A stretch of 34,165 nt of DNA, from IMG/VR virus record IMGVR_UViG_3300030333_002838, positions 1 through 34,165 of that record; one strand, 5' to 3'. This document shows positions 9,974 to 32,566 of this stretch, in pieces (within the stretch, counting starts at the first letter, position 1; every line of letters begins with the position of its first letter). The stretch is from a virus. The notes beneath the pieces are model-generated. The model was not told the origin of the DNA, did not search any database, and worked only from the letters and a program-made list of their open reading frames with translations. Made by a program: the position numbers and the translations under genes.

Positions 9974-10652
9974 TCTCATCACCTTCCTTTTCTGTTAGAT
10001 TTTCTACCTTTGCTCCTTCCGTTAGTAGTGTCTGCACCCTTTCGTTTATAGCATTATTCTCTACTATCAACCTGAAGAGTTCTTCTTCAGAAGACTCAAA
10101 TTCCGCCTTCGGTGGTCTTATTGTCCAACCTAGTCCTGACAGGGATTGTATATCAACCTGCTTTAGACTAGTTAACGGGCCAGTGACTGCTGCTAGTGGG
10201 TTGAGTTTCTTTGCACTAGGAACATATGCGCTAAACGAAAGGCCGTGTTCCTCTGCTAGTATCTGTTGCTCTAGATATTCATATTGTCTGTGTATTGCAG
10301 CATGTTTGTCACAGTAGGTTCCTCTCATTGGATATCCTTTTCGCACTTTATGTAGGGGAAGAGGAGGCCTTAGATTATCACTAGCCTCCCAAACCTTCTG
10401 TGTTCCACAAACCACACATCTATCTTTGATGTTATATTTGAACTTGTATGGGATTTTCAAAAATGTCTTGTTTTCAGGCTTCAAGACTTTGATTATCTCC
10501 TTGAGTTGCTTCTTTGGCTTGGTGCTTTTATAGTCATAATTCATTATTGGCCCTGCTGACCTAGCAGACTCAAACCTATCCATGAACGCACTAGAATTCA
10601 CGGTGGTATTGGTTGCTCCAATTAAACTAGGGGGCTGGAATTGCATCGACAT
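9957..10652 (-). CDS. Zinc-binding protein of unknown function
   Basis: A 231-residue protein. ATG 10652 is chosen because GGTGA sits five bases upstream; a GTG three codons earlier overlaps that site. A CxxC near residue 79 and a C-D-K-H near 114 probably bind one metal, with basic and aromatic residues in between. Residues 45-70 are basic, and the C-terminal 40 residues are acidic. It could be a nucleic-acid-binding or virion protein. Its last 17 bases or so overlap the next gene in another frame. Confidence 0.75.
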   Translation of the reverse strand: MSMQFQPPSLIGATNTTVNSSAFMDRFESARSAGPIMNYDYKSTKPKKQLKEIIKVLKPENKTFLKIPYKFKYNIKDRCVVCGTQKVWEASDNLRPPLPLHKVRKGYPMRGTYCDKHAAIHRQYEYLEQQILAEEHGLSFSAYVPSAKKLNPLAAVTGPLTSLKQVDIQSLSGLGWTIRPPKAEFESSEEELFRLIVENNAINERVQTLLTEGAKVENLTEKEGDENVGNE

Positions 10653-10665
10653 TAGGTTCACCGTA

Positions 10666-11337
10666 TCAATAGTCCTTTATCATTGTTAGGACTCCTCTAT
10701 ACACCATCTCCGAGTTTGTTTTGGCACTAACGATATACTTGTAGCAAGGTATTCCCTTGTCATTGAGTCTTTGCATTCCATCTCTAAACGCCTCAAAAAT
10801 CGGATGTTTCTCTATGGGGCCATCATAGTCATACTTGTCTTTCCACAAATCATACTTGTTCGCCCACAAACCTACTGCTACAGGATAATCAGAGTCCCTC
10901 TTCTTTTTTCTCTTTCCATTAACATTCCATTCAGAAGCACATATTGTATCTACTAGAAAAGTCCAACATAGTTGCTGCTCGATATCGAAGTGTTTGTCCA
11001 TATGCCTGTCATCCAACATGAATATGATGTATTTGACATGCCTCCTTCTCATGTCATTAATCCAATCATTCCAATATACAGTCTGTCCTCCAATATCTGC
11101 TGTTTTAACGGTATGAGCATCCCCATCTAATTTAATGAATTTTCTTGTGGCTCTTTCTAGACCAACGGTTCTAGTTTTGATATCCGGCACTTCTCCTCTT
11201 GTTCTAAGTTGGTTGTTCAAGGTAGTCTTCCCTGCTTGAGTCGCACCATATATTCCAAAGTTAATTGCGTGTATTCGTTGGTATAATTTATTCAATCCTT
11301 CTACAATCAATATGGCAAATCCTGCCATAACTGACAT
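10666..11337 (-). CDS. Ras/Arf-like small GTPase
   Basis: A 223-residue protein with the signature set of a P-loop GTPase: G1 G-A-T-Q-A-G-K-T near 31-38, a possible G2 threonine near 55-57, G3 D-I-G-G-Q near 81-85, G4 N-K-Y-D near 160-163 and G5 S-A-K near 204-206. D-x-G-G-Q is typical of the Arf/SR-beta/Gtr side of the family and includes the glutamine that supports hydrolysis. The N-terminus (residues 4-14) is hydrophobic, as in membrane-associated Arf-like proteins. A Lys/Arg insertion near 142-147 is unusual. GGTGAT precedes the ATG. Nearby membrane proteins suggest action at a membrane. GTP binding is well supported; the viral role is unknown. Confidence 0.88.
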   Translation of the reverse strand: MSVMAGFAILIVEGLNKLYQRIHAINFGIYGATQAGKTTLNNQLRTRGEVPDIKTRTVGLERATRKFIKLDGDAHTVKTADIGGQTVYWNDWINDMRRRHVKYIIFMLDDRHMDKHFDIEQQLCWTFLVDTICASEWNVNGKRKKKRDSDYPVAVGLWANKYDLWKDKYDYDGPIEKHPIFEAFRDGMQRLNDKGIPCYKYIVSAKTNSEMVYRGVLTMIKDY

Positions 11338-11341
11338 TCAA

Positions 11342-11566
11342 TCACCATAGATGATGCCAAAAGTCTACTGCTCCATTCCAAACCCATGATAGAGTATTAA
11401 TCCCATAGACTGCCAATGCTTGTCCAACAACGAAACTAGACAAACAAGCAATTCCACCCCATAGATAGAATCTTGCTCTTAGAAACCAGATATCAGCAGA
11501 ATGCGCTCTTTGTAAGTCATATGCGAGAGTGGATTCATCCATTCCGAATAGTATTTCGCTTACCAT
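11342..11566 (-). CDS. Small single-span membrane protein
   Basis: A 74-residue protein with one clear hydrophobic segment (about residues 32-57) and a Trp-rich C-terminus (W-V-W-N, W-H-H-L-W). ATG 11566 is used, with GAGG seven bases upstream; an overlapping ATG four bases earlier is out of frame. It sits 12 bases after the two-span membrane protein and five bases before the GTPase start. Possible roles are a GTPase partner, a spanin/holin-like lysis component or a virion membrane contact; none can be settled from sequence. Confidence 0.65.
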   Translation of the reverse strand: MVSEILFGMDESTLAYDLQRAHSADIWFLRARFYLWGGIACLSSFVVGQALAVYGINTLSWVWNGAVDFWHHLW

Positions 11567-11578
11567 ACATATGCCTCA

Positions 11579-12001
11579 CTACTGCTCTACGGTCAAGAAT
11601 GTCGGGCTAACACCCTCAGATTCTGCTACAACATTACCATAGCCTTGTTGCGCGGTTGGAAGATTATTATCACCATAGAAACCGGTGTTTTGCTGGAAGG
11701 CTCTGAAGGATTCTCTAACTCTCTTCCTGTTATCTTCCTCTCTAGCCTTTCTTTGCCAATAGGAATCGATTCTACGCTGCAAAAGCCACTCTTCTATGTA
11801 GTCGTTAAGGAATAGGTCAAAGAACGCTTTAATGCACATTATTCCACCAACGGTCACAACACCGAATAGTAGGGCATGTTCAACGTATCCGTATGGGAAA
11901 GTAATTCCGTATTGTGAATAGAAGAATATGTTAGTTCCGCTAATTGCACCAACGAATAGTATCGTCATCACAAGTCTTGTATCTGAATCTATGCTTGGCA
12001 T
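11579..12001 (-). CDS. Membrane protein with two transmembrane segments
   Basis: A 140-residue protein with hydrophobic segments near residues 9-31 and 42-63, then a strongly charged helix (about 68-105, Arg/Glu-rich) and a polar C-terminal tail. Such a layout fits a small inner-membrane anchor with a cytoplasmic domain. No family is recognised. It is followed by a single-span membrane protein and a small GTPase gene, so the three may act together at the host membrane. Holin function is possible for a two-span protein but unsupported otherwise. Confidence 0.75.
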   Translation of the reverse strand: MPSIDSDTRLVMTILFVGAISGTNIFFYSQYGITFPYGYVEHALLFGVVTVGGIMCIKAFFDLFLNDYIEEWLLQRRIDSYWQRKAREEDNRKRVRESFRAFQQNTGFYGDNNLPTAQQGYGNVVAESEGVSPTFLTVEQ

Positions 12002-12002
12002 G

Positions 12003-12161
12003 TTATCTCTTCACCTCTGGAGTTGCTTCATCTTTAATAGCATCTACCACTATTTTTGCTTCTTTAACTTCTTTAACAGGCTCTATCACAAGAGCAATCG
12101 GTTCTGCTGCTTCGGCTGCACCTGAAAGAACATTCTTTTTCTTTAAAATATTTTGCCACAT
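12003..12161 (-). CDS. 52-residue tagged protein (MWQNILKKK start)
   Basis: A short gene read from the bases, with GAGGA six bases before the ATG and one base separating its TAA from the next ATG. It begins M-W-Q-N-I-L-K-K-K, the recurrent peptide with the serine lost. The body is Ala/Glu/Val/Lys-rich with V-K-E-V-K-E heptads, a probable single helix. It is the only N-terminally tagged gene found downstream of the capsid gene, and it lies beside two membrane-protein genes. Function unknown. Confidence 0.75.
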   Translation of the reverse strand: MWQNILKKKNVLSGAAEAAEPIALVIEPVKEVKEAKIVVDAIKDEATPEVKR

Positions 12162-12170
12162 ATTAATTCC

Positions 12171-12485
12171 TCACAGGAAATGAACGAAAACGGTTCCTCC
12201 GGTTCCCGCTATGTGCAGATACAATCCATCTTCTGCAACCACCCCATGTAAGTCAGTCTCAAAGTTGAATGCTGGTGCAGAAGTGTGGTTTCCATTTGTA
12301 GAAACCTTGGCAATGGCTACTCCTGAAGTGTCTGTGCCATCATATAGAGTTGCAACGAAAGCAGCAGTCGCTCCACTACCGGAATGATTAGCAGTTGAAT
12401 TAACATGCATGGAAATCGCTTTGTGTCTTCCAAACGCTATTTGAGTGCTTGCTGTGCAGGAACCGCTACTAAGACAGCCTGTCAT
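12171..12485 (-). CDS. Beta-rich small virion protein candidate
   Basis: A 104-residue Gly/Ala/Thr/His-rich protein with the strand-heavy composition of small capsid-surface or fibre proteins. Two cysteines lie near the N-terminus (C4, C9). Its ATG directly follows the previous stop (TAGATG), with GGTGG seven bases upstream. No family is recognised. A second decoration or spike protein is plausible because of composition and nearness to the capsid genes. Confidence 0.65.
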   Translation of the reverse strand: MTGCLSSGSCTASTQIAFGRHKAISMHVNSTANHSGSGATAAFVATLYDGTDTSGVAIAKVSTNGNHTSAPAFNFETDLHGVVAEDGLYLHIAGTGGTVFVHFL

Positions 12486-13043
12486 CTAAAGTCCACCCTT
12501 GCCCTCTGTTAGCCTCTTGATAAGGTCTGCTTTTTTACCTTCTGTTGCAAGGTTTCTCTCTACTAGGAGTTTCTTCAAATCCTTCACAGTTAGTTTTTCC
12601 AACTTAGGAGGCAGAGGTTCTAGTTTAGGTTTCTCCTCAACATCTTCTTGTGGAACGACTTCCTTAGCAGCCTCTACCCATGCTGGCTCCTCTGGTTCAG
12701 GCTTTTTCTCAGCCTTCATCATCTTTCTTCCTTTCTTCATCAATTGTGAAGCAGGGCCGCTTGATGGGCCACATAACTTATCTGCTATCTGCCTAGGTTT
12801 GGAACTTGGCATTTTTAGCAAGTTGCCCATTCTTCTAATGATGTAATCAGGCAAAGAAAGAATTTCCTTCCTATCATCATCAGTCCACTTAAAATCAAGT
12901 CTTTCATCCAGAATCAGCGTATATGCCTCTTTCACAGTCAGTTCCTGTGGCACTCGCCAAAACTTAATTTGAATTCTATTCTCATCTCTCCATATCCACG
13001 TTGTGAAGGAGCGGCTGCTTCTATTCGTCTTTATCAATACCAT
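12486..13043 (-). CDS. SAP-domain protein
   Basis: A 185-residue protein. The last 38 residues form a SAP-like helix-extended loop-helix motif (L-T-V-K-D-L-K-K-L-L near 151-160, then A-D-L-I-K-R-L near 172-178), a small DNA-binding unit. The first 90 residues are a mixed domain with several Trp and Arg residues (T-W-I-W-R near 15-19). The linker 105-148 is a Pro/Glu/Lys-rich disordered stretch. The start follows an A-rich stretch and GGTG. It may bind packaged or incoming DNA, or be a head protein with a DNA-binding tail; the exact role is unknown. Confidence 0.75.
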   Translation of the reverse strand: MVLIKTNRSSRSFTTWIWRDENRIQIKFWRVPQELTVKEAYTLILDERLDFKWTDDDRKEILSLPDYIIRRMGNLLKMPSSKPRQIADKLCGPSSGPASQLMKKGRKMMKAEKKPEPEEPAWVEAAKEVVPQEDVEEKPKLEPLPPKLEKLTVKDLKKLLVERNLATEGKKADLIKRLTEGKGGL

Positions 13044-13486: not shown

Positions 13487-14872
13487 TCAAGCAGCCTTCA
13501 GGTTCGTAATCTTTCCTTGGCCCTTCATGAAGGAACAGCAGACTTCACCGACTGTGCGGTATAGTCCTTGGTTCCCTAGTTTCTTGACACCAAATGGGTT
13601 GCCGTTAGTGATACCATCCTCAAAGTATTCGGTTGGCTTCATCACTGATAGCCACAGATGGTCCGTGTCTAGTATCAGGATGTCACTTAGGGTAGCACTC
13701 GTTCCAGTTGAAGGCATATCCTTCGCTGGAATGATTGGTATGTCGTAGTATGTTGCCACACGGAAACCAACCTCAGCACCCTTAACTCCACGAACTCCGT
13801 TGTGGGTTGGGACAATCTCTTTCCTGTCCATGAACCTCTCTTGGCTCTGTAGCAGGTCAGATATGTGCTGTATTGTGTCGTATCCCGTCAAGATAACCTT
13901 GGGGTTTCCACCGTTCTGCCTTAGTCTCCTAATCATGCTGTTTAGGATGCTTAGGGTTAGAACTCTAGCACCACCAGAAGCATAGTTGCTTCCCTCAGCA
14001 AGTGAACCCATGTCCACTTCTGCGTCTAGGAAACCGTTAGCCCCGCTTGTGCTTGCGTTAGCAGAACCGCTAGTGACTCCTCGGCTTAGACCGAAGATAT
14101 CTAGCAGTTTAGCAGGGGTGGTTCCATCGGATGAACCCGATGCAGTGATGTTAGCATCGTGCATCTCAACAATCTCACCAGCAGACGAAACTATCTTCAT
14201 TAGAGAAGTGTAGTTGTTTCCTATGTCTCCGTAGTTAGCGTTGTCGTAATGCTCTAGAGGCATCAGAAGCATCTTGCTCTGAACCTCAGCGTGATGCTTA
14301 CCCATGTCCTCACGAACAATGGCCCTTATGTCACCAACACCGTCATCTATTGCTGCAAGTTCCATTGCCAACTCCGAGAACTCAAACATGTGAGCAATCG
14401 TCTTTGGCCTGACATGCATCTTTGCATACTCAGGGGCCATGGGGTGTAGCCCAGTTCCCTCAAGTGCTGCATTCTCAGCAACTCCACCAATGCTGTCAGC
14501 AGCAGGTGTATCATATCCTGTGTTCTCGGTCCCAGATTGGTCCGTGTTGTTAATGGCAAAGGCAGAACCGCTTCCACCTTGTGGCCTTGACTTTAGAACT
14601 CTCCAACCGCTAGAGGTGTAAGGCCTCTTTGGTAGGATGGATAGAGGATTAACCTCCCTGTTCAACATCGACCATACCTTTTGCCCGTAGGCAAGGTTGT
14701 ATAGGTCACCCATTCCTTGACCGGAGTTACCCATACCAGTTAGTAGGGTTTCTCCACCATGTGCTGTCCCGAAACCTGCAACAGTTCCACCAGCCTTCAT
14801 TAGGGTGTTAGCCCCTCTTAGGCCGTATGTTGCCGCTTCTAAATCTGCAATCGTCTTAATATATCCACTCAT
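13487..14872 (-). CDS. Major capsid protein (HK97 fold)
   Basis: Builds the icosahedral shell. The 461-residue length, position directly after the protease-scaffold and C-terminal half fit HK97-type capsid proteins. That half includes a P-K-V-I-L-T-G stretch near 323, a helix ending Q-E-R-F-M-D, the Y-Y-D-I-P-I-I-P strand near 378, D-T-D-H-L-W-L near 404 and a final L-G-N-Q-G-L-Y core. The N-terminal 60 residues are Gly/Ala-rich and a likely scaffold-like delta region removed by the protease. An AAGGAG lies 11 bases upstream of the ATG. A strong hairpin lies one gene downstream, possibly setting capsid mRNA abundance. Confidence 0.9.
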   Translation of the reverse strand: MSGYIKTIADLEAATYGLRGANTLMKAGGTVAGFGTAHGGETLLTGMGNSGQGMGDLYNLAYGQKVWSMLNREVNPLSILPKRPYTSSGWRVLKSRPQGGSGSAFAINNTDQSGTENTGYDTPAADSIGGVAENAALEGTGLHPMAPEYAKMHVRPKTIAHMFEFSELAMELAAIDDGVGDIRAIVREDMGKHHAEVQSKMLLMPLEHYDNANYGDIGNNYTSLMKIVSSAGEIVEMHDANITASGSSDGTTPAKLLDIFGLSRGVTSGSANASTSGANGFLDAEVDMGSLAEGSNYASGGARVLTLSILNSMIRRLRQNGGNPKVILTGYDTIQHISDLLQSQERFMDRKEIVPTHNGVRGVKGAEVGFRVATYYDIPIIPAKDMPSTGTSATLSDILILDTDHLWLSVMKPTEYFEDGITNGNPFGVKKLGNQGLYRTVGEVCCSFMKGQGKITNLKAA

Positions 14873-14888: not shown

Positions 14889-16106
14889 TCAGTTTACTCC
14901 TACAAGACTGTGAACATCGGTCCAAGATAGGTCTGCCATCTCTTCTATTGATGTTGGGAAGCCTTCGGGTAGTCCGAATGCGACCTCTTGTGTCTTGCGA
15001 ATCTCATCGTTCTTTGCGCTGATAGACTTCCTAAGTTCCTCAAACTCGGTTCTTAGGGTAGCAACTTCCTGTTGAGCATCGTAATCTGCTCTCTCGGCTG
15101 CTGCTTTCTTAACGGACATCTCTTCCTCAAACCTAGAAGCAAATTGCTTGCTTAGGTTATCAAAGGCCAACTTCTCTAGTTGCTCTGCCTTGTATGCCTC
15201 GTAAGCCTTCTCAACGTTCTCGTTGCTAAGGTTCAGTGTGGTGAAGTCCCTGTCACCGTATCCTTCTACGATGTCTCCTTTGACGGTAGCACCGTCAATT
15301 TGGGTCTTCTCAGTGATAAGTTTTCCAGCCTCAACGTCTAGGTCTTTATCAAGAGCCTTTTCTGCACCATCATCTGACATCTCTTCGGTGTCTTCTGGTG
15401 CTGGCTCTTCTTCTGGTTGCTCATCAGGAAGGGGTTCTGCATCTTCATACTCGCCCTTTTCCATTGTTTCCACATTGCTTTCATCTGTTTCTTCTTCCGC
15501 CTTACGGACCTCGGTTATTTGCGTTAGCAAACTGTTGAGTTCCGTGATTGATTTCTCCAATTCTTCACTCATTTTTTCTTCAACCTCCGACTTTAAAATG
15601 TCGAATTTCGCTTCTGGGTTTATTCCTTTCTCGCAGATTGTAACTTCATGCAGTTCTAACTTGTCAATCTCGTTGTATCGCCCAAGTTCAGCACTAGTTC
15701 TGCTTTTCTTAGAAATTGCTTGCCCTCCTATACTAAATGACCTCAGTGTTCCTTTTCTGATGCCTCTTGAAATCTCCTTTGCTTTTTCTATGTCATCTCT
15801 AAGTTTTATTACGACATAGAAACCAACATCATCTACTCCTGTCTTGTGTAGAGTTCCGTTGTTATCTCTGTATTGTTCTATGACCTCCCCGACTTGAACA
15901 TTTGAATGGTTAGACATTACGTTTCTGTAATTATTTTCTCCCATGAATTTGTTAACTGCTTCATCTAATGCTGGAATGGTAATCAAATCGTTTTGCTTAT
16001 CAACGACTTCTATTGATGCATAACCTCCTATTACCAAATCATCTGACTTTAAAATCTGAAAACTACCTACATCGCCATGCTTTAGAAGAACTTCTTGCTG
16101 CAACAT
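14889..16106 (-). CDS. Prohead protease fused to scaffold-like domain (S78-like)
   Basis: Assembles with the capsid protein and then cleaves scaffold or capsid segments during head maturation. Residues 1-175 match HK97-type proteases: G-G-Y-A-S near 28, the catalytic histidine in M-S-N-H-S (H67), the serine in S-F-S-I-G-G (S125, with S123 nearby) and L-H-E-V-T-I with E154, followed by the family-like K-G-I-N-P-E-A. Residues 205-250 are extremely acidic, about 290-380 are coiled coil, and the protein ends S-W-T-D-V-H-S-L-V. Such protease-scaffold fusions are known, and scaffold C-termini often bind the capsid protein. ATG 16106 is used over an upstream TTG. No ribosome-binding site is seen, but a TATA-like element sits at -27. 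Confidence 0.9.
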   Translation of the reverse strand: MLQQEVLLKHGDVGSFQILKSDDLVIGGYASIEVVDKQNDLITIPALDEAVNKFMGENNYRNVMSNHSNVQVGEVIEQYRDNNGTLHKTGVDDVGFYVVIKLRDDIEKAKEISRGIRKGTLRSFSIGGQAISKKSRTSAELGRYNEIDKLELHEVTICEKGINPEAKFDILKSEVEEKMSEELEKSITELNSLLTQITEVRKAEEETDESNVETMEKGEYEDAEPLPDEQPEEEPAPEDTEEMSDDGAEKALDKDLDVEAGKLITEKTQIDGATVKGDIVEGYGDRDFTTLNLSNENVEKAYEAYKAEQLEKLAFDNLSKQFASRFEEEMSVKKAAAERADYDAQQEVATLRTEFEELRKSISAKNDEIRKTQEVAFGLPEGFPTSIEEMADLSWTDVHSLVGVN

Positions 16107-16128
16107 TTGCAAGATTGCGAATTTTTTA

Positions 16129-16144: not shown

Positions 16145-18667
16145 TTATTTCGGAAATGGTAATTCTGCATACTTATCTTCTGTTATATCCCACATATGTT
16201 GCTTTCCTTGCGTTTCTATCATAGTTTGCTTTTTTCCTGTCCAAGCAATCCAAGTATTTTTCTCATTCATCGGAACAACTCTAAGATGAACTCTAGTTTT
16301 GAATTTATCACCGTTTATTTTGTATTCGTGATAGCCGTTTTTCTGCATTCCAAGAGAAAGTTTTCCTTCATCAATAAGTTTCTTTTTATCTGTGTTAGTA
16401 GAAACAATAGCAGGATACTTACCTGATTTTCCAAACAAGTCATAGATATCTGAGTCTTTGTCTATCTTAATTGTCCAAGCATTCTTAGTGTTTTCAATAC
16501 CAAGAATGAAATCTAAATTACCATCCTCCCTCTTATACAATTGAAAAAAATGGTCATCAGATTTTGTTATATTGCTTGGATTCAATGAAAACGTCTGGTT
16601 AGCACTATCATAAACAAACGCTCCGCGTTTATTCATGCCTCTAGCCAATTTTATTGGTTGTCCTTGCCAATGGGTGTCTATTTCTCTTGGAAAGTTCTTT
16701 TCAGCAAACTCAAACACTTCTTCTAGAGTCATTTCCTTCGGATTAGAAGAATCGTCACCTGTCATCTCTACTTGTATTGCCTGATACACCTTTGACTTCT
16801 CTTTGTGTATTAGGTCTGCAAGTTGTTCTTTCCACAAATCCAAATCAGCAACTGCATTCTTCTCCATCAAAGAGTCACCATCAAATCCATAGATTGTAAA
16901 TCCATCAAGGTCTGATTTTAGAATTATCTCAGCATCACCGTGTATGGTATCTGTAATGGTATAGGACTTTTTCATGTCCTTGTCTTCACTTTTCACCTTG
17001 TAAATGGAATCCAAGGTTTTCTTGCTTTTCTTGGATAATTGTTCTAAAGTGAGCAATTTGTCAGAAGTATCTACTTCAGGAATCTCACTCAATTTAGCAG
17101 AATAGAGGCTGAATCCCTTTTTTCCTTTCTTTACTTCATCTACCTTGACTCTGATAATTGAGCCAATTGCAACAGATTGCTTAGTATTGAGGGCTTTTCC
17201 GACAGGAAGATAAAACTCTCCATCTAACTCAACTGTGTCATATTCATCCTGTTCCTCCTCTGTAAGAGGCCCGATTCCCATAGTGTAGGAATGCAAGTTG
17301 CTCTTAGTTTTCTTCTTATCTAGAACAATGACATCCAAATCAACGAATTTCTTCCACTTAATCCACTTTGGGTTTTTCTTGATTCCCTTGTAATATGTAG
17401 ATTCAATGTCCTTTATGACTACTCCTTCTGAGGTAGGCAATTCCATTATTGCCTCAGCATACTTCTCTACTTCTTCTATGGAATCCGCTATCCTCGTATC
17501 CTTCTTGGAAGGGAAGGCTAGGACTTCCGAAGAATGTTGGGAGTATTGGTAGAACAGAACGTTGATTCTTTCCCTTAGAGTTTCATCTAGCATCATCTTG
17601 TCTTCGTGTTTCATTATGTCAAACACATGCGCTCTTAGTCTGCCCTTGGTTTTCTTTTTGAAAACATGCTTGATTGTATCCGCACGATGTAGAGCATCAT
17701 CCCCATCGAATAGAATGAGTTCTGCATCTAGAATGCAATCTCCGAACTTCTTATCTTTGAGTTCTTCAACCTGTTCCTTGCATTTCTTAGTGATATCTTT
17801 CTGATTGTAAGAGTATATTTTGATGACATCTTTCAACTTATGAATTTGTATCCTCATCCCATCATATTTCTCTTGCACAACGAATTCACTAGTTAGTCCC
17901 TTAATTTGGTGCATGTCTTTAATCTCAAATATCCGATACATCGGCTTATTCGGTATTAGAAAGTCGGCATCTTCATTTGGTTTTTTTTTAACTGATTCGG
18001 CTTTACTGATATCCAACGCTAGTAGATTTTCCCAGTTATCCTCATCGTATTTGACTAAGAACAACTTCTTGACTACCTTGAATAATGACTTGAAACGAGC
18101 GGTCACTCTCTTTGTATCCTTGTCATCACCATAGTGTTCTTTGATGTAGAGGGGTATGTCCTTTGGTTCCAAATCCAACCCCAACATATCCTCGGTGATT
18201 CTGTCAGGCTCAAATCCGTGTTTCTCCAATACCTTGTCTGGTAGGGTATTAGCGTGAGAACGCAGTGCATAATGGATAAATGCCACAAAGACAGAATCGT
18301 TCTCCATTAGAGTCTCATAGACATTATCGCCTAGTTGGTCACTGAACGGGTCAGATATCTTGTCAGACTTGAATCTCATGGCCTTGATAGACATGAAGAG
18401 AGACTTGGCTCTAACACCTTCAGGATTCATCACTTCTTTGTCATGGAGAACATCTTCGTCTATCCATCTTTTCAATTCCTTAGAAAAGGAACCTATGCCA
18501 TCGTATTTCTCTCTGATTGACTTTACAGTGGACTTCCACTTGTCGCCGTATTCAACGGGGTCTTCCTTAGCAGAAAGATAAGAGTATCTAACTCTCTCAA
18601 AGAAATCCAACACTCTCTTTGTTAGGTGTTGTATTTCCTTATCGAAAGTTAGACCTGATTGAGGCAT
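16145..18667 (-). CDS. ATP-dependent DNA ligase with long extra N- and C-terminal regions
   Basis: Seals DNA nicks by the ligase-adenylate route. The nucleotidyltransferase core is clear: motif I E-K-Y-D-G-M-R with the nucleotide-accepting lysine near K267, motif III L-D-A-E-L near 313-317, motif IIIa V-F-D near 348, motif IV E-G-V-V-I-K near 414-419 and motif V K-W-I-K-W-K near 434-439. An OB fold with I-G-S-I-I-R-V-K-V-D follows (about 445-530). At 840 residues it is much longer than a usual viral or archaeal ligase (about 550-600). The first 240 residues lack an obvious known DNA-binding domain, and about 300 residues after the OB fold are unassigned. Placement between portal and protease is unusual and suggests a late or virion-linked job such as genome repair. 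Confidence 0.93.
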   Translation of the reverse strand: MPQSGLTFDKEIQHLTKRVLDFFERVRYSYLSAKEDPVEYGDKWKSTVKSIREKYDGIGSFSKELKRWIDEDVLHDKEVMNPEGVRAKSLFMSIKAMRFKSDKISDPFSDQLGDNVYETLMENDSVFVAFIHYALRSHANTLPDKVLEKHGFEPDRITEDMLGLDLEPKDIPLYIKEHYGDDKDTKRVTARFKSLFKVVKKLFLVKYDEDNWENLLALDISKAESVKKKPNEDADFLIPNKPMYRIFEIKDMHQIKGLTSEFVVQEKYDGMRIQIHKLKDVIKIYSYNQKDITKKCKEQVEELKDKKFGDCILDAELILFDGDDALHRADTIKHVFKKKTKGRLRAHVFDIMKHEDKMMLDETLRERINVLFYQYSQHSSEVLAFPSKKDTRIADSIEEVEKYAEAIMELPTSEGVVIKDIESTYYKGIKKNPKWIKWKKFVDLDVIVLDKKKTKSNLHSYTMGIGPLTEEEQDEYDTVELDGEFYLPVGKALNTKQSVAIGSIIRVKVDEVKKGKKGFSLYSAKLSEIPEVDTSDKLLTLEQLSKKSKKTLDSIYKVKSEDKDMKKSYTITDTIHGDAEIILKSDLDGFTIYGFDGDSLMEKNAVADLDLWKEQLADLIHKEKSKVYQAIQVEMTGDDSSNPKEMTLEEVFEFAEKNFPREIDTHWQGQPIKLARGMNKRGAFVYDSANQTFSLNPSNITKSDDHFFQLYKREDGNLDFILGIENTKNAWTIKIDKDSDIYDLFGKSGKYPAIVSTNTDKKKLIDEGKLSLGMQKNGYHEYKINGDKFKTRVHLRVVPMNEKNTWIAWTGKKQTMIETQGKQHMWDITEDKYAELPFPK

Positions 18668-18902: not shown

Positions 18903-19133
18903 TTAACCACCGTAATTCTCAATCATAGCGTGAACGTCTTTCCATTCCATTGAACTCACATCGGGAATCTCATCTGCCTTTGTTATATTCATATCAGGAG
19001 TTGGGCTATCTACGACAACATATCCTGATTTCATCAAGAGGTTGTCCTTGTCATAAACCGCCTTCTCTAGGTTATTCACCTTGTCAACTAGTTCTTTCAA
19101 AAGCATAACCAACTCGTCATTTGCCTCAGACAT
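18903..19133 (-). CDS. Small coiled-coil protein with C-terminal WKDVH motif
   Basis: A 76-residue protein preceded by GGAG at good spacing. Residues 4-33 form a leucine-rich coiled coil, residues 35-58 are a polar linker, and the last 15 residues contain M-E-W-K-D-V-H-A-M-I. The prohead protease encoded downstream ends with the closely similar S-W-T-D-V-H-S-L-V. A short coiled coil with a capsid-binding tail is what a small scaffold or assembly adaptor could look like, and it lies between the tagged block and the capsid module. The role is inference; the motif match is plain. Confidence 0.75.
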   Translation of the reverse strand: MSEANDELVMLLKELVDKVNNLEKAVYDKDNLLMKSGYVVVDSPTPDMNITKADEIPDVSSMEWKDVHAMIENYGG

Positions 19134-19135: not shown

Positions 19136-19411
19136 TTATCTCTCCTCATCTCTATTTGATAAAACTGCCGCCCCTACTTTCCCAGCAGCCGCTAGATTTT
19201 TATCAAAATGGTCTTCATCTGTTTTACTACTATAATCTGTCAATGAAGTCTGTGTGGTGTTTGGGTCAGCCTCAGCAGGTTCTGTGTCATCGCCTATTGG
19301 CTTCTTGAACCATTTATCTGCCGTTACCTTACTTTGAGTAGTCGCGGAAGCAACGAGTTCCGGTGGCAACTTAGTCTGTTCCTTTTCCTTTAGAATAGAT
19401 TGCCAACTCAT
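19136..19411 (-). CDS. Tagged 91-residue protein (MSWQSILKEK start)
   Basis: The open frame extends ten codons upstream, but ATG 19411 follows a GGTGAT by four to five bases and gives M-S-W-Q-S-I-L-K-E-K, so it is taken as the start. The remainder is polar and Thr/Asp/Ala-rich, probably partly disordered until an Ala/Gly-rich C-terminal helix. It is the last member of the continuous tagged run. It precedes the 76-residue protein bearing the related C-terminal motif. Confidence 0.75.
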   Translation of the reverse strand: MSWQSILKEKEQTKLPPELVASATTQSKVTADKWFKKPIGDDTEPAEADPNTTQTSLTDYSSKTDEDHFDKNLAAAGKVGAAVLSNRDEER

Positions 19412-19433
19412 TACATCACCTTCAAAACTGCGC

Positions 19434-19709
19434 TCATTCATTTTGTCTTCTTAGTTTGCTACTATAATCTAACATGAAATCATAACTTTCTTTTACGGCA
19501 TTAGCAAGTTCAAAGTCTTCACCATCTTCACCCGCTAACATACGAATCCATTCTTCTTTGAGAGTAGGATGAGCATCTAACATCATTAATTCTTTTCCAG
19601 CCTCATTAGGCTTTAGTTTTCCAGACTTCACATCCTTCTGCCAATCAACCAACAACCTCACATTTTCGGGATTTGTTCCCTTTGCTTTCATTATATCTTT
19701 CCAACTCAT
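19434..19709 (-). CDS. Tagged 91-residue helical protein (MSWKDIMKAK start)
   Basis: Begins M-S-W-K-D-I-M-K-A-K, eight bases after the previous stop. The rest is a compact helical domain (residues 15-91) with conserved-looking Trp, Leu and Glu positions and no catalytic motif. The tag here, W-K-D-I, is the version closest to the W-K-D-V-H found near the C-terminus of the 76-residue protein encoded at 18903-19133, which links the two motif classes. Function unknown. Confidence 0.75.
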   Translation of the reverse strand: MSWKDIMKAKGTNPENVRLLVDWQKDVKSGKLKPNEAGKELMMLDAHPTLKEEWIRMLAGEDGEDFELANAVKESYDFMLDYSSKLRRQNE

Positions 19710-19717
19710 TTTATCGC

Positions 19718-20299
19718 CTATTGATAATAGTCACTTTGTAGATAATAATCAACATCCCTTGTAAATAATTGTTCAAACCGTTTAATACCACTTCGTATTC
19801 CACTTGCAAAACCAAAACTCATACCACCAAACTCATTACCCATTAACATTTGAAAACCTCTATCAGTAGCAAATTCTGAATCTGAATCTCTAAACACATC
19901 ATTAATCAATTCATCCATATTGTAAGGGCCGTGTTGTGGATTCTTATCTGCATACTCCTTGGCCTCTTTCTTTATCTTTGCAAGTTCTCTCTCAGCCTGA
20001 TAAGCCTCCCTTAAAGCAGAGTCTAGTTTTTGCCTAGTTCTGTCCGGGTCAATGAATCCGCTTCGATTTAGAACTCGCAACATTTCCCTATCCTGTGGAA
20101 TTTTTACGTTGATTATCTCCGCCAACTTTCTTTCAACTTTTTTGAAACTAGGGCTTTCATAGGACTCTGAATATCGCTCCGCTTCAATATCTCTTCTTAG
20201 AGCATCCATCTCAAATTCTTCTTCTGCATCCCGTTCAAAGGGTTGTATCTCTGTTCTATCTAATTCATATTTATTCTTCAGAATATTTTCCCAACTCAT
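19718..20299 (-). CDS. Tagged 193-residue protein (MSWENILKNK start)
   Basis: Starts M-S-W-E-N-I-L-K-N, the consensus form of the recurrent peptide, after a GGTGAT that overlaps the preceding stop. Residues 10-115 are charged and helical. Residues 140-175 contain a Gly/Phe/Met-rich stretch (F-G-G-M-S-F-G-F) that could be a loop or membrane-active segment. The C-terminus is Tyr/Asp-rich. No homologous family is recognised. The tag implies the same targeting as its neighbours. Confidence 0.75.
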   Translation of the reverse strand: MSWENILKNKYELDRTEIQPFERDAEEEFEMDALRRDIEAERYSESYESPSFKKVERKLAEIINVKIPQDREMLRVLNRSGFIDPDRTRQKLDSALREAYQAERELAKIKKEAKEYADKNPQHGPYNMDELINDVFRDSDSEFATDRGFQMLMGNEFGGMSFGFASGIRSGIKRFEQLFTRDVDYYLQSDYYQ

Positions 20300-20307
20300 T
20301 TCATCAC

Positions 20308-20772
20308 CTAAAATGACACATCATCACGATGTGGAACAGGATATAGAAGTCCATCACTGTCTTCTGCCCACATTTCATCATCCTGTAGTTTGTAGCCTTT
20401 GAAGTCAGGATGCACTCTTCCTCGACCACCCGATGTCGTGTAGCCAATATCATCATCTTCGGGTTCATCTTCTTCTTCAGGCTCTAATTGTGCAATCGCG
20501 TTAGATAACCGACTAATAGCACCGTTATAATCAGATACTGCTGTTAATACAGAATCAATATGCTTATCGATATAACTCTTGTCATCATCATCCAATAAGT
20601 CTCTCAATTCTCCCGCACCATCAGAATACATTGGGCTGGAACCAATTTTATTGTAGAAGGCTCTCCAGTCATTCCAATGAACTACACTATTCTCATCCAA
20701 TCGGAATTCTTCAACTTCGTCTGCTAACCTACCAAAGTTTATTTCTCTTTTCAGGATTTTTTTCCAACTCAT
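20308..20772 (-). CDS. Tagged 154-residue acidic protein (MSWKKILKR start)
   Basis: The open frame allows a TTG start three codons upstream that would overlap the previous stop, but ATG 20772 gives the recurrent M-S-W-K-K-I-L-K-R peptide and is preferred. The middle (about 100-120) is a Glu/Asp run, followed by a Gly/Arg patch and a C-terminal segment rich in Asp and aromatic residues that could be a small beta unit. No known domain. It belongs to the coupled block of tagged genes between portal and ligase. Confidence 0.75.
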   Translation of the reverse strand: MSWKKILKREINFGRLADEVEEFRLDENSVVHWNDWRAFYNKIGSSPMYSDGAGELRDLLDDDDKSYIDKHIDSVLTAVSDYNGAISRLSNAIAQLEPEEEDEPEDDDIGYTTSGGRGRVHPDFKGYKLQDDEMWAEDSDGLLYPVPHRDDVSF

Positions 20773-20777
20773 TTCAA

Positions 20778-21053
20778 TCAACCCTCGATATCTAAGTAAG
20801 GGCTGTTTTCGTAGTCCCGTATTATGTGTCCTAAAGATGCCCTTGTTCTTTGAAGTGAAACTTCTAGGTCACCAGTATCATCTAGGCCCATTATGGTTTT
20901 ATTCCTTAAAATTTCACTAATAGCCTCAATAGCCCGTTCCATATCATCTATTTCCTTCTTTGGGACTTTTTCGTTTGGGCCTCTTCGTTCATCTCTCAAC
21001 ATGTCTATCTCATGTTCTTCCATGTCATTTTTGATTATATTTTCCCAAGTCAT
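20778..21053 (-). CDS. Tagged 91-residue acidic protein (MTWENIIK start)
   Basis: A small charged protein starting M-T-W-E-N-I-I-K, almost identical over eight residues to the start of its upstream neighbour, while the remainder is unrelated. Two helices (about 25-48 and 62-80) are likely. The shared tag is spelled with different codons in the two genes, consistent with protein-level conservation more than with a recent DNA repeat. It overlaps the preceding gene by ATGA. Function unknown. Confidence 0.75.
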   Translation of the reverse strand: MTWENIIKNDMEEHEIDMLRDERRGPNEKVPKKEIDDMERAIEAISEILRNKTIMGLDDTGDLEVSLQRTRASLGHIIRDYENSPYLDIEG

Positions 21054-21538
21054 TTCTTTTCCTCCTTATTTTTCTTAGGATAAACAAGTTCTCTCATTTC
21101 CCCATAAAGTGTCTCGTATTGCTTACCAACACTTGCGGCAGACGCTACCATTTCTAAATTCTTTTCCTCAAAACCTTCCATTTTCTTTTTGAAAGCATCA
21201 TCTGTTTTGTAAATTCCCATGCTTTTGAATTCATCCATGAGAGTAGAAATTTTGTCGATTTGTTGTGTGAATGTTCCTGTGGGTGCTGCATCTTGAAGTG
21301 CTTCTTTGATTTTCTTCTTCTTCTTTGCATCTATCTTTTCTAATATTGATTTAACAATAAACCCGTCTTCTTGTGCTTTTCGTTCATCATCTTCATCATT
21401 CGACACTGCATTAGCAGTTTCATTGGCTAAATCAACAGCAGCATGAGCAACTCTCGCTCCAGCAGCAACTTTGTCTTTTTTAGCATGACGAAGAACTTTT
21501 GCTGCTGGGGCAATTTTTAGTATGTTTTCCCAAGTCAT
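21050..21538 (-). CDS. Tagged Lys/Ala-rich helical protein (MTWENILK start)
   Basis: A 162-residue protein beginning M-T-W-E-N-I-L-K, joined to the previous gene by an ATGA overlap. It is rich in Lys, Ala and Glu, with predicted long helices, a Lys-rich patch K-K-K-K-K-I-K near residues 73-79 and a basic C-terminus, so DNA or scaffold contacts are possible. No recognised domain. The next gene starts within its stop (ATGA), indicating that the tagged genes are translated as a coupled set. Confidence 0.75.
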   Translation of the reverse strand: MTWENILKIAPAAKVLRHAKKDKVAAGARVAHAAVDLANETANAVSNDEDDERKAQEDGFIVKSILEKIDAKKKKKIKEALQDAAPTGTFTQQIDKISTLMDEFKSMGIYKTDDAFKKKMEGFEEKNLEMVASAASVGKQYETLYGEMRELVYPKKNKEEKK

Positions 21539-22740
21539 TCAGAATCAAGCCCCATCATTCGTCTAATCTTATCTGCTAACTCAGCATATCTTTCTTGTAT
21601 GGTTTGCAGATTTATCTCATCGTTAAAAGGATATCGTGGAATTTTGATATTGGTGTTAGGCACATTCTGATTTGCCATTTGAGCATAGAAAGCAACCTTT
21701 CCGTAGAATTCTCTCATTTCTCTTGTTTCTTCGTTGTCTTCATCTAGCCCAGTAGCATTGTTTCTTTCTTTCTTCTCGGCATCACGGAACTTTCTTTCTG
21801 CTAGAATGATTAGTTTCTGCAAATCGTCTGTATCTGAGATATATGCAGCGTCATCATCTACGTTAGGAGAATCTAATACTCTTTGTAATTCTCGGTATTC
21901 TCCTTCTAGTCTTTCCTTTCCAGCATACAAGTCATATAGGTCAGAACCAATGGCTTTGGGTTTCTTGATTGTGCTTAGAGTGTAGAGTCCCTTGTCTTTC
22001 AAGTAGCGCAATAGGATATCAAAGCCCCTTCTCCCGTTGTATGACTGTGTTAATAAAACAGAAACACTAGGGTCCATTCCTCGGAAGACTAAGTCATCAA
22101 CTCCCCTATGACCTCTTCTCTTGATGACAAGAATCAAATCAATTATGTCTGTAAGTTGTTTACCGTCAAACTTACCTAACTTAGTGAGTATTTGTTCTGG
22201 ACCCTCTATGCTTTTATTTTCTGAAAGACCAACGAAGAATTCTTTCCATGCTTTGATTTCTTCGGATTTTTTAGTGGGTTGCTCGGCAATATCCTCATCT
22301 ACGAATTTAATTTTTAATTCGTTAACAATCTCTCTAGTCATTCTATTAAGATGCGTTTTAATGAATCTGTATATTCTACCTAAGTCTCTTTGCTCAGATA
22401 AATCAAAGGAATTATTGTTAAGTTGAATAGCAGTGTTAACCCGTTGACTTAGGGGCTGTGTTCTACTAATGTCAAGTATTCCCAACATTGTTCTTATGAT
22501 TTCCATCATATCATAGAAGTTGTAGTATTCCCCGTTTTCTGCCATTTCAACTAGAAATCTCCTTGGAGGTCTAGAAGAAGTAGGTGCAGCAGATGTTAAT
22601 CTGTTGTTATTTTCTATCCAAAGAGTCAACGCAGATGAAATCTCATCTAGTAATCTCTTATCATTCTCATCAAGGTGTTTTTTCATGAATTCTTCTATAG
22701 TCATCTGCTCTTCTTTGCGCAAGATGTCCATAAAAGACAT
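21535..22740 (-). CDS. Tagged 401-residue protein (MSFMDILRK start)
   Basis: Unknown protein, mostly helical and charged. It starts M-S-F-M-D-I-L-R-K-E-E, a version of the recurrent start peptide in which the tryptophan is replaced by phenylalanine and the lysine by arginine. These conservative swaps argue for selection on the peptide. No enzyme motif, membrane segment or metal site is apparent. It is the first and largest member of a run of seven consecutive tagged genes (22740 down to 19136) and shares an ATGA overlap with the next one. A head-internal cargo role is inferred from the shared tag. Confidence 0.8.
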   Translation of the reverse strand: MSFMDILRKEEQMTIEEFMKKHLDENDKRLLDEISSALTLWIENNNRLTSAAPTSSRPPRRFLVEMAENGEYYNFYDMMEIIRTMLGILDISRTQPLSQRVNTAIQLNNNSFDLSEQRDLGRIYRFIKTHLNRMTREIVNELKIKFVDEDIAEQPTKKSEEIKAWKEFFVGLSENKSIEGPEQILTKLGKFDGKQLTDIIDLILVIKRRGHRGVDDLVFRGMDPSVSVLLTQSYNGRRGFDILLRYLKDKGLYTLSTIKKPKAIGSDLYDLYAGKERLEGEYRELQRVLDSPNVDDDAAYISDTDDLQKLIILAERKFRDAEKKERNNATGLDEDNEETREMREFYGKVAFYAQMANQNVPNTNIKIPRYPFNDEINLQTIQERYAELADKIRRMMGLDSE

Positions 22741-22972: not shown

Positions 22973-23127
22973 TCTCTTTTCCTCCACTCTTTGCTTTTTT
23001 TAGTCATCTTATTGAACTCTTCGATTTTCTTATCTGTTTCTGCATTCAATTTGTCAATCTCTTGTTTCCACTTCATAGCAGTCCTAGTCACACTATCCAA
23101 CTCTTCTTTCTGTTCTTCTATCGACAT
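22969..23127 (-). CDS. Small coiled-coil protein
   Basis: A 52-residue, very charged, probably all-helical protein overlapping the 3' end of the portal gene by 35 bases in another frame. ATG 23127 is chosen over the upstream ATG 23181 because an AGGA lies six bases before it, while nothing similar precedes the other. An internal M-K-W-K-Q-E-I stretch resembles the recurrent tag but is not at the N-terminus. The stop overlaps the next start (ATGA). Scaffold-like or portal-associated roles are possible from position; no family is recognised. Confidence 0.65.
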   Translation of the reverse strand: MSIEEQKEELDSVTRTAMKWKQEIDKLNAETDKKIEEFNKMTKKSKEWRKRE

Positions 23128-24763
23128 TAGTATTCCCTGCTTCTTGTGGTAATCCTGAGAACCGCTTGTCAGGACCGACATTCATACTAGGTTTAGACCT
23201 AGCGGCAGGAGGGTTCTCTTGAGACTTAACGGGTTCAGGCCTTCCTTCTTCTGTAGGACTAGGCCTTCCCCCGCCGCTTTCCATCATTTCCCCCATATGT
23301 CTAGCGTCAATGTTTGTCCCTGCGTAGGGGTCTACTTGGAATTCATCTTCTCCACCAGCCTCCCCTTGTTGCTTTTCTTTTTCTTCCTTCTCATAGATGA
23401 AATCGCCTTTGTCATCCATGTCTACGCTAAATCCTAAGTTCTTTATTTGACCAGCAATGCTAACTTCCATCTCTCTCTTTCTGAGAAGAGCCACATTGTC
23501 TTCTTCCTCTGATGGTGGTAGTTTCAATACCCAATCTGTAATTCCAAACTGGTCAGTTACGAATGGGAAAACATAGTTGTTCCAAAGTGTCTGAGCCATC
23601 TCTACTGCTCTGTTTGTGACTAGAATCTGTAGTCCTTCGTTATTCAAACCACCTGCGGCAGAAGCATCGTTCTGGAAAATCTTACTGACTCCATAGAAAG
23701 CAGATATCCTATCTCTCAAATCATCTTTCACGGCAATGTAGTCCATTTCCTTGAGACTATCCATGAAGTTAATCCACTCAACAGAACCCTTACCGCCTTC
23801 TGCTTCTATTCCCATTACAGGAATGAAGTGTGGGTCTTGTTCCATCTTCTCCTTAACGCTTCTCCAAAAGGACTTCATTGAATCCATGTTTCTAGTTTGA
23901 ACTGCTAGTAGTCCCCTTGGCATACGAGCCTTGGTGTATGAGGAATTGACGTAATTCTCCATTGCTAGTAAGGTAGTAATCTGATTCCATAACGTCAAGA
24001 CAGGTGAAATCCCATACATTCTACTTGGAGAGTATTTGCTGAAATGCAACACTTCTCCCTTAATGAAATACTGTTCCTCTCCATTGGCCCTATTGACATA
24101 GTGAACTGGATGAACGTCACCTCCGCACATTTCACAAGTTCCATTTGACTCAGTGATTAGTTGGTCCCTATGCCTCAAACAAGTATGTCCCTCTTGTCCT
24201 TTCTGCCCTATTCTATCAGAATAGATATGCATGCTCACAGGGTCACCCCTGTATACTTCCTTGATTCGATGCATCTTTATTTCGGAATCACTATCCATGT
24301 AATACTCTTTGACCATCACCAGATATGCATCATCCATGATGTTCAAATCATCCTCTAGTTCCTTCAGGACATCAATGAAAAGTTGTTCTGATTTATTGAC
24401 ATACTTATCTAAGAACTTCGTGATGTATTTTAGTTGGCTGGCATCGGGTTTACCGAGGTTGGTTGAACCACACTCAATGCATTGAGCAGTAGGTTTAGCG
24501 TGTTCCTTCCCACAATCCTTGCATTTCATCGAGAATTTCTCTTCCCATGTGTAGCCCTTTCTGAATATCTCTTGCTTCAATTGGGTGAGACAAGTTCTCA
24601 GAATAGCGGATTGTTCCGCAACATGGTAGATGATTGGTGTTGTCACCATGAAGTTAGTCTTCTTCTCTTGTATACCCGGATTGAACACCTCTCTATCTAT
24701 TGGCTTAGGAGTGGTTCTTCTGAAGAGATTTGTAATCTTGAATCTCCTCTTTTCCTCAACCAT
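23093..24763 (-). CDS. Portal protein with inserted zinc ribbons
   Basis: Forms the dodecameric ring at one head vertex through which DNA enters and leaves and to which the terminase and tail connector dock. At 556 residues it is in the normal range. The H-F-S-K-Y-S-P and Y-G-I-S-P stretch near 240-254, the long helix that follows, and the asparagine-rich G-L-N-N-E-G segment near 390 fit HK97/SPP1-type portals. Two unusual insertions carry metal-binding pairs: C81-C84 with C95-C98, and C195/H198 with C210-C213. The C-terminal 100 residues are Glu/Gly/Pro-rich and probably flexible. The gene follows the tagged 53-residue protein and precedes the tagged-protein block. Confidence 0.9.
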   Translation of the reverse strand: MVEEKRRFKITNLFRRTTPKPIDREVFNPGIQEKKTNFMVTTPIIYHVAEQSAILRTCLTQLKQEIFRKGYTWEEKFSMKCKDCGKEHAKPTAQCIECGSTNLGKPDASQLKYITKFLDKYVNKSEQLFIDVLKELEDDLNIMDDAYLVMVKEYYMDSDSEIKMHRIKEVYRGDPVSMHIYSDRIGQKGQEGHTCLRHRDQLITESNGTCEMCGGDVHPVHYVNRANGEEQYFIKGEVLHFSKYSPSRMYGISPVLTLWNQITTLLAMENYVNSSYTKARMPRGLLAVQTRNMDSMKSFWRSVKEKMEQDPHFIPVMGIEAEGGKGSVEWINFMDSLKEMDYIAVKDDLRDRISAFYGVSKIFQNDASAAGGLNNEGLQILVTNRAVEMAQTLWNNYVFPFVTDQFGITDWVLKLPPSEEEDNVALLRKREMEVSIAGQIKNLGFSVDMDDKGDFIYEKEEKEKQQGEAGGEDEFQVDPYAGTNIDARHMGEMMESGGGRPSPTEEGRPEPVKSQENPPAARSKPSMNVGPDKRFSGLPQEAGNTNVDRRTERRVG

Positions 24764-30634: not shown

Positions 30635-32566
30635 TCAGGTCACTCCATCCACAAATCCACGAATTTGTTCGTTTCTAGTATATTGTTCTACAATAGTATC
30701 TTTCAATGCTTCCTTGAAATCTCCAATGACGGTAGGGAAATTAGTTTCAATCGCTTGCATTAGTTGCTCTAAGTCCTTCTCAAAGTCCTTAGAGTTCATG
30801 AGTCGGTCTTTCTTCATACCAATGTCGTATTTGTTGCTGTAGCCGCTTTCCATCAAAGCAACCAATTCCACAACATCTTCCATTAGTAGAGTTTGTGAGT
30901 TGAACTTGCCATCTGTCATTAGTGATTTGCTCTTTTTCCAATTCTCTTTCTCAGGAGTATCCTCAGAATATCTTTCCCTCATGATATCCCTAGTCCTACC
31001 AGTCGAGTAAATCAGTTTACTAATAAACGGGTGATTAATATCATCAGGATTGGAGAGTTTCATCTTGACTGCATCTCCCTTCATGTCAAGTAGGATATTT
31101 GTTCCTGTTCTACCGTCAAGGTCTTTGTTAGCATCTCTTGAAATCTGCCTAGCCCTTGTGTATGAGCCAATTGGCAAATGAGAATTCATTTCTTCTCTAG
31201 CAGCCTTGTATCCTGCCTTATCTGTTCCTCTAAGAGGCATTCCTTCTGTCAAGAACTCCTTTACCGCATCCCAGTCTTGAGTAGGTATTGTCATAGAAAT
31301 AATTCCCTTTTCCTTAGACCTATCTTTGTATGCCTGAGATGCAATTTTGTTTTTATCTACAGTAGGATTTCTCATTTCTCTAAGGAAGTCATCTAATCCT
31401 CTTCTAGTTTTTCCACTAACAGAAACCATGTCATTGAATGCTTGTTGTAAAACATCATCCGTCTTAGCCTTAGACCAATTTTCAGTAAGGGTTTGTAGTA
31501 AGGCTCTTTCCTGCGCTTTCATAGAAATGCCTTGCACCATCTTACCTTCCTTTCGATAAGAGAAATCAGTCTCATCTAATTCTAACTTCTCCTTACCCAT
31601 AATATGCAGTAAAGCAGGAACTATCCTCAATCTATCAGTAGCCAATTTGAAGGCCTTCCCATTCTTCTTCTTAGGGAAAGCAGCAAGTCGCAAATTGGCT
31701 GACATGGGTGCTGTCATTATGAATTCCAAATAGGAAGTCAAGTGAGGGTCTAAGTCATCCTTGTTTATTTTGGCCTTCTCCTCATCAAAGGCTGTATCTG
31801 AAGTTTGGTATAGTGTCTCTTTCACTTGGTTCCTAAACTCAGGGTTCTGATTCAGATAATCGCTGAATGTAGTGCCAGTTGTATTGGAATCGAATTCCTT
31901 TCTAGCAGCAATGAAGTCTTTCTTTCTATCAAAGAATGTCCTTCTACCTATTTTGCCCATATCAAAATAATCTAGGAAATTCTGGTGGTTCCCATTGACT
32001 GCTTCTTGTAATAGTTCGTTTATTTCATCCGTTCTACTTATTTGTGGGGTTTCTTGTGAAGGTAGAGCATCTAAAACCTCCTGAGCCAATTCCTTGACCT
32101 TATCCAAGTCACCTTCCTCAACATCTACCTTGGGATTAAGGACAAGAGGATTGAGTAGTTTCTCATCCCAAGCAGACATATTCAACAGTCTCTTCATATG
32201 CCTACTAGTCGTTCTAGATGTTAGTAGTCCGTTATCTATCATCGTTAGAGTCTGCTCTGGACCGATGCTGATAGGAAGAATAGGATTGCTTTTCACCGAT
32301 TCCTTCTTTATCTCATCAATCAACTCAAGTGCTTTTGATTCCATCTTCTTTAGAGGTATTTGCATAGCACAACCATCTTGGGCGTATCTACTGTTTGAAG
32401 AAGGTGGGCCTTTCCCTTCAGGGCAAGCCATCCCTCTTTGAACCAACTTGTGGCAAGCGAAACAAGACCCACTATAGTGAACTTTTGGCTTTTGGTGGTC
32501 TGCTAGGCTTTTAGGGTCAAATGTCCATTCAGTTCCAACTTTTTTGATTTCGTCTTCCCATGACAT
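30635..32566 (-). CDS. Large tagged protein (MSWEDEIKK start) with N-terminal zinc site
   Basis: A 643-residue protein of unknown family, overlapping the previous gene by one base (TAATG). It starts with a variant of the recurrent N-terminal peptide, M-S-W-E-D-E-I-K-K. Cysteines C35, C38, C48 and C66 form a likely zinc-binding knot straight after the tag. The remainder is mostly helical and charged, without an obvious enzyme motif or membrane segment. Lying just upstream of the terminase and bearing the tag, it may be a large internal virion protein. That role is inference from context, and nothing in the sequence names its chemistry. Confidence 0.8.
   Translation of the reverse strand: MSWEDEIKKVGTEWTFDPKSLADHQKPKVHYSGSCFACHKLVQRGMACPEGKGPPSSNSRYAQDGCAMQIPLKKMESKALELIDEIKKESVKSNPILPISIGPEQTLTMIDNGLLTSRTTSRHMKRLLNMSAWDEKLLNPLVLNPKVDVEEGDLDKVKELAQEVLDALPSQETPQISRTDEINELLQEAVNGNHQNFLDYFDMGKIGRRTFFDRKKDFIAARKEFDSNTTGTTFSDYLNQNPEFRNQVKETLYQTSDTAFDEEKAKINKDDLDPHLTSYLEFIMTAPMSANLRLAAFPKKKNGKAFKLATDRLRIVPALLHIMGKEKLELDETDFSYRKEGKMVQGISMKAQERALLQTLTENWSKAKTDDVLQQAFNDMVSVSGKTRRGLDDFLREMRNPTVDKNKIASQAYKDRSKEKGIISMTIPTQDWDAVKEFLTEGMPLRGTDKAGYKAAREEMNSHLPIGSYTRARQISRDANKDLDGRTGTNILLDMKGDAVKMKLSNPDDINHPFISKLIYSTGRTRDIMRERYSEDTPEKENWKKSKSLMTDGKFNSQTLLMEDVVELVALMESGYSNKYDIGMKKDRLMNSKDFEKDLEQLMQAIETNFPTVIGDFKEALKDTIVEQYTRNEQIRGFVDGVT

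Follow-up and report, generated by a model that had tools for sequence, protein, structure and literature searches.

The virus genome studied here, together with its relatives, carries a short peptide at one end of many otherwise unrelated proteins of the head-gene region. The stretch analysed (the window) comprises positions 1 to 34,165 of IMG/VR virus record IMGVR_UViG_3300030333_002838 and contains the structural half of an archaeal tailed virus. The peptide, [STN]-W-[KEQF]-[DNES]-[IV]-[LIV]-K, is a real, portable terminal feature specific to one virus group, and we consider it probable that it is a head-cargo docking tag forming a capped amphipathic helix, with its cargo delivered in some cases to the next host. 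A literature search returned no mention of MSWENILK and no description of such a tag. New here are its portability between protein ends, a related peptide on the prohead protease/scaffold and on the small coil protein p75, and the physical resemblance of the putative capped helix to the capsid-targeting sequence (CTS) of T4.

An initial annotation had listed twelve gene starts in the window that share an N-terminal pattern. All twelve were found on the minus strand, opening as described:

33000-33269, minus strand: tagged protein MSWQIMLKKENPPTW, 89 amino acids (aa)
32566-33003, minus strand: off-consensus tagged protein MSWQSVFINPFK, 145 aa
30635-32566, minus strand: MSWEDEIKKVG, variant tag, 643 aa
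24763-24924, minus strand: 53-aa protein MKWFSVLKKKKP
21535-22740, minus strand: MSFMDILRKEE, F-type tag, 401 aa
21050-21538, minus strand: MTWENILKIAP, 162 aa
20778-21053, minus strand: MTWENIIKNDM, 91 aa
20308-20772, minus strand: MSWKKILKREI, 154 aa
19718-20299, minus strand: MSWENILKNKY, 193 aa
19434-19709, minus strand: MSWKDIMKAKG, 91 aa
19136-19411, minus strand: MSWQSILKEKE, 91 aa, start backed by a GGTGAT box
12003-12161, minus strand: MWQNILKKKNV, 52 aa, seven-residue MW form, downstream of the capsid gene

Nine of these starts follow the shared pattern strictly and the one at 12161 (MWQNILKK) follows a shorter MW form, but MSWQSVFI (33003) and MSWEDEIKK (32566) are off-consensus. 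The run of seven consecutive tagged genes is as annotated, with starts from 22740 to 19411. Shine-Dalgarno-like GGTGAT boxes upstream back several of the start choices, for example 19411 over an upstream ATG at 19441. A portal search yielded 25 relatives (61-74% identity), nine of which were read whole or nearly whole. At the position of the 643-aa variant the relatives encode proteins of 633-822 aa with canonical tags, to which the window protein shows no sequence match at E 1e-3; at the position of the F-type gene they carry MSFMDIL[KR] on proteins of 662-745 aa. The off-consensus 145-aa protein has a second, internal DWFEMLKD near residue ~20.

Our counts cover ten genomes, the window and these nine relatives, with 885 genes from a simple home-made caller whose gene calls are approximate. 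W-type N-terminal tags, defined as M-(x)-W-x-x-[IVLM]-[LIVMF]-[KR] at the protein start, occur on 114 of the 885 genes; the internal rate of the core W-x-x-[IVLM]-[LIVMF]-[KR] (1.2e-4 per residue) predicts 0.22. Once the tag is cut off, the 114 proteins fall into 82 sequence families. The annotated sharing of one tag by at least eleven unrelated proteins is therefore borne out and reaches well beyond both that number and the region 19136-22740. Other loci add ~700 tagged open reading frames, and the tagged proteins of all loci form 337 clusters. On the strand of the portal gene 130 of 529 genes are tagged, on the opposite strand 2 of 356. Three genomes have 18/31, 10/22 and 14/30 tagged genes in the head segment, and downstream of their capsid genes none of 59 is tagged; the window has one exception there, the short gene at 12003-12161.

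The tag is also confined to one group of viruses. Of 50 records sampled among the matches listed for a strict 24-base pattern in IMG/VR viral contigs, 46 belong to a single magrovirus-like group (38 by the same protease, 5 more by the same TerL and 3 more by other structural genes). The same pattern gave 33 scattered single matches in 257 Gb (gigabases) of cellular genomes, none of the 33 in a record titled Poseidoniales. As a control, the initial annotation had proposed asking whether the peptide is equally common in cellular genomes and unrelated viruses. It is not, which favours a tag. Chance or a gene-start artefact is ruled out by the internal-rate, strand and cellular-genome controls. 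The published signature of magroviruses (Poseidoniales viruses) comprises B-family DNA polymerase (PolB), DNA ligase, ERCC4 nuclease, portal, terminase, S78 protease and capsid (PMC10160649). PolB was found in 6 of 8 relatives and ERCC4 nuclease in 6 of 7. Together with ligase and structural genes, they complete the signature set; the window itself holds the structural half and a ligase domain only.

Composition was taken from 97 eight-residue tags. At position 2, Ser occurs in 64 tags, Thr in 9 and Asn in 8. Ninety have Lys, Glu, Gln or Phe at position 4, and the main residues at position 5 are Asp (36), Asn (18), Glu (14) and Ser (10). Ile or Val fills position 6 in 89 tags, Leu, Ile or Val position 7 in 94, and Lys or Arg position 8 in all 97. 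The tag appears to resemble a helix N-cap, with Ser/Thr followed by Asp/Glu three residues on and one face carrying W, I and L. The shorter MW form makes up 15 of 50 tags in one clade versus 2 of 64 in the other (p = 8e-5).

Codon variation had been read as a sign of selection on the peptide. This stands for the Ile, Leu and Lys codons, which vary freely (codons 4 to 8 are variable), but 59 of 64 tags have AGT as their Ser codon, compared with 40 of 81 codon-2 serines of untagged genes (p = 1e-8). The conservation thus stems partly from shared descent of a ATGAGTTGG start, besides independent selection: many tag starts share ancestry, and the tags are not all independent inventions. In one relative (G005, 40824-43571) five adjacent tagged genes all have the W-F variant. 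Such clustering suggests local spread of the tag between neighbours, with a weak excess over all genomes (p = 0.05).

The peptide is portable to either terminus. Eleven proteins carry the core 1-5 residues from the C-terminus, where 0.77 are expected. In an acetyltransferase family with 42 distinct members the tag is N-terminal in 7, C-terminal in 16 and at both ends in none. At one syntenic site, between a homologue of a 957-aa protein and TerL, the acetyltransferase tag is N-terminal in L002 and C-terminal in L011, L014 and L015. A model of a C-tagged member has a GNAT fold (predicted local distance difference test, pLDDT, 93), its PDB matches are GNAT enzymes, and the tag is modelled as a terminal helix with falling confidence. 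A tRNA-nucleotidyltransferase-like protein has the motif at both ends, starting MWFNILK and ending SWEDLLWR. Initiation sequences cannot account for such C-terminal and end-swapped tags.

Related peptides end two proteins of the head module, whose relevant features in the window are:

23093-24763, minus strand: portal protein, at the upstream edge of the main tagged cluster
18903-19133, minus strand: p75, small coil protein, with C-terminal M-E-W-K-D-V-H at ~18906-18950
14889-16112, minus strand: prohead protease (Peptidase_S78) fused to a coiled scaffold-like region
~14892-14930, minus strand: C-terminal peptide of the protease, L-S-W-T-D-V-H-S-L
13487-14872, minus strand: major capsid protein (SU10-type; SU10_MCP match), a candidate docking surface

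All 43 distinct complete C-termini of the protease/scaffold close, after the coiled region, with [MLI]-[STDE]-W-x-[DE]-[IVL]-H. The p75-type coil proteins (75-100 aa, neighbouring the protease) have a similar ending, with W-x-[DEQ]-I/V kept in 28 of 28 distinct relatives (W-x-[DEQ]-[IVL] is invariant across both proteins), and a protease profile search picks up the p75 C-terminus in 15 other records. A link between the cargo tag and the scaffold C-terminus is suggestive at the level of sequence. Two further proteins contain similar segments. Residues 405-413 of the capsid protein (D-H-L-W-[LM]-x-V-M-K-P) are invariant in all aligned relatives and resemble the tag core. A zinc-finger protein, possibly the small terminase (33266-33922), ends PEVWLDVRKQMEEKMQ; its relatives keep W-L-D-[VI] near the C-terminus, which may be a further docking peptide.

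Recognisable tagged proteins include acetyltransferases, a CCA/poly(A)-polymerase-like enzyme, pentapeptide repeats, a PAP2 phosphatase and a possible metallopeptidase; some of the enzymes look like host-takeover effectors. The tagged proteins of the window gave no useful matches to PHROG, and for the one tagged protein tried against the PDB (193 aa, 19718-20299) no relative was found.

We propose that cargo docks through the tag helix to a component of head assembly, with the capsid shell and the prohead scaffold core as the likeliest candidates. Since the protease/scaffold and p75 carry a related C-terminal peptide, the cargo probably imitates the docking peptide of the scaffold. Closure of the shell would then enclose the tagged proteins, and some may be carried into the next host cell, where acetyltransferases, the tRNA-nucleotidyltransferase-like enzyme and others could act before viral gene expression. 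The N-terminal cargo-loading tag of the initial annotation survives in part: the peptide keeps to the head-gene segment, effector-like enzymes bear it and the scaffold/protease has a related motif at its end, but the peptide is not strictly N-terminal. Only tentatively do we extend this to a general protein-delivery code in marine archaeal viruses, in which an either-end peptide would load any protein by scaffold/protease mimicry for injection, giving each virus ~10-20 interchangeable effectors.

Several observations weigh against docking and delivery. Likeness between tag and scaffold C-terminus is limited to the first half (S-W-x-D-I), with H-[NKS] in place of [LIV]-K. With a matrix built from tags only, the C-termini of most scaffold and p75 proteins score within the best 1-12% of tryptophan sites, and the two worst lie at 21% and 27%. 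At positions 9-12 of tagged proteins no conserved residue that could mark a protease site was found, although another cleavage rule is possible. AlphaFold modelling of a natural in-frame protease and capsid protein (L029, stop codon read as Gly) reached a pLDDT of 41 and gave no evidence of docking. Finally, most tagged proteins match nothing and lack a recognisable function.

The tag could instead be a docking motif for a partner other than the capsid, such as a host complex or an intracellular site of viral assembly or replication. Its clustering with head genes would then simply reflect that accessory late genes gather there. Tagged proteins do look like accessory genes, the head partner is one that we infer, and host-factor docking motifs can occupy either protein end. 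However, genes of the replication half are almost never tagged (the 2 of 356 above), and the related motif at the ends of the protease/scaffold and p75 points to head assembly; we regard a non-capsid partner as somewhat unlikely. Unlikely, too, is a structural role in which the tagged proteins are internal or scaffold-core components that give the prohead its shape and are not delivered as effectors. T4 internal proteins partly function in head assembly (PMC9026906), and some tagged families are widespread, such as that of the 162-aa protein (21050-21538), which is present in 9 of 9 relatives and mostly tagged. Most families, however, are sporadic, with 66 of 97 clusters of tagged proteins being singletons, and several tagged proteins are enzymes without an obvious structural role.

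The common ancestry of starts seen in the AGT codon and the weak excess of neighbouring WF-type tags would fit a likeness that simply comes with shared gene starts (through duplicated leaders or a translation-initiation sequence) and has no function at the protein level. This is very improbable, as C-termini bear the same peptide too, members of one enzyme family differ in which end has it, and the sequence upstream of tagged genes holds little beyond an ordinary Shine-Dalgarno region. A DNA-level repeat or leader as the sole cause is ruled out by the C-terminal tags and the codon variation, while the AGT sharing shows some common descent. A short helix bearing W, I, L and K might also be read as a membrane-binding amphipathic one, but with seven to eight residues it would make a short membrane anchor, most tags have an acidic residue or Asn at position 5, and D and H occur in the scaffold version, which leaves a membrane role hardly credible.

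Like the CTS of the T4 internal proteins IPI, IPII and IPIII, which comprises about ten N-terminal residues, the magrovirus tag is a short terminal peptide common to otherwise unrelated proteins. The T-even internal proteins are a diverse anti-defence set with only the CTS in common (PMC3012670), and CTS residues 4 and 7 do the targeting (PMC9026906). Read from the T4 genome, the three proteins start MKTYQEF or MKTFKEF, so that Y4/F4 and F7 align with W3 and I6 of the tag. Both peptides appear to be of the same helix-start type, [ST]-aromatic-[KEQ]-[acid]-hydrophobic, and the order of portal, tagged cluster, protease/scaffold and capsid parallels T4 genes 20 to 23. An untuned BLOSUM score derived from magrovirus tags alone ranks IPII and IPIII 4 and 5 of 199 T4 start candidates and IPI 25. 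As IPII and IPIII carry the same tag, this ranking is one observation and lends mild support. It replaced a physicochemical pattern matching exactly IPI-III, which was dropped as circular because it had been written after seeing T4. The top T4 candidate, NKWKPLLEG (L272:9973), lies inside the gene 23 capsid-protein reading frame near its start, possibly by chance.

The tag probably works like the T4 CTS but departs from it in two defining features, as it sits on either terminus instead of being a strictly N-terminal propeptide and no conserved cleavage site follows it. It also differs in virus lineage, in its W/I/L/K consensus and in having many more cargo families. Packaging is proven for T4 and proposed for the magrovirus tag. 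We therefore describe the tag as physically similar to the CTS and not a member of it, and claim no sequence homology. Encapsulin cargo-loading (targeting) peptides are likewise short portable peptides that load cargo into an HK97-fold shell; the magrovirus system differs in being a virus capsid with scaffold and protease, and its peptide has another consensus and is mostly N-terminal. In P22- and lambda-type scaffolds a C-terminal segment is proposed to bind the shell. The magrovirus protease/scaffold similarly ends in a conserved peptide after a coil, but in magroviruses a related peptide is spread across many cargo proteins. The head module of haloarchaeal HVTV-1 has a related S78 protease (~31% identity) and similar gene order; no W-type tag was found among its listed head-region proteins. 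HVTV-1 (L269) gp113, gp115 (zeta toxin) and gp116 (3808-6954, 8201-12142 and 12135-12596) share a V-Y-V/I-x-S-P-x-E-A-P-E-like stretch close to one end, which may be another kind of module common to haloviral head genes.

Besides portal, S78 prohead protease and SU10-type capsid protein, the window encodes TerL; a search of annotated phages found no close relative of the virus. Between p75 and the prohead protease lies an 840-aa protein (16145-18667) that contains an ATP-dependent DNA ligase adenylation domain (residues ~259-439) and holds this position in 9 of 9 relatives. The position is unusual for a ligase, and the protein is perhaps a virion enzyme. The structural module also has a small-GTPase-like protein (10666-11337 in the window, weak match), which all relatives keep. 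PolB is split across two reading frames in several of G001, G002, G004, G005 and G007 and is a single 1003-residue frame in G006. G004 (IMGVR_UViG_3300021958_000021; 184,733 bases) has two copies of the protease and polymerase regions and looks like two related genomes joined.

Magrovirus hosts are among the most abundant archaea of the surface ocean, and most small late genes of these viruses have no known function. With the tag as a guide, ~10-20 orphan genes in each genome, and hundreds of families in total, become likely virion-borne effectors that can be tested as a set. The tag gives a sequence-based way to predict the virion cargo of uncultured viruses, and it is a candidate peptide for bringing foreign proteins into the capsid of an archaeal virus. 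The tag also suggests that archaeal tailed viruses have an independent, two-ended counterpart of the T4 capsid-targeting strategy.

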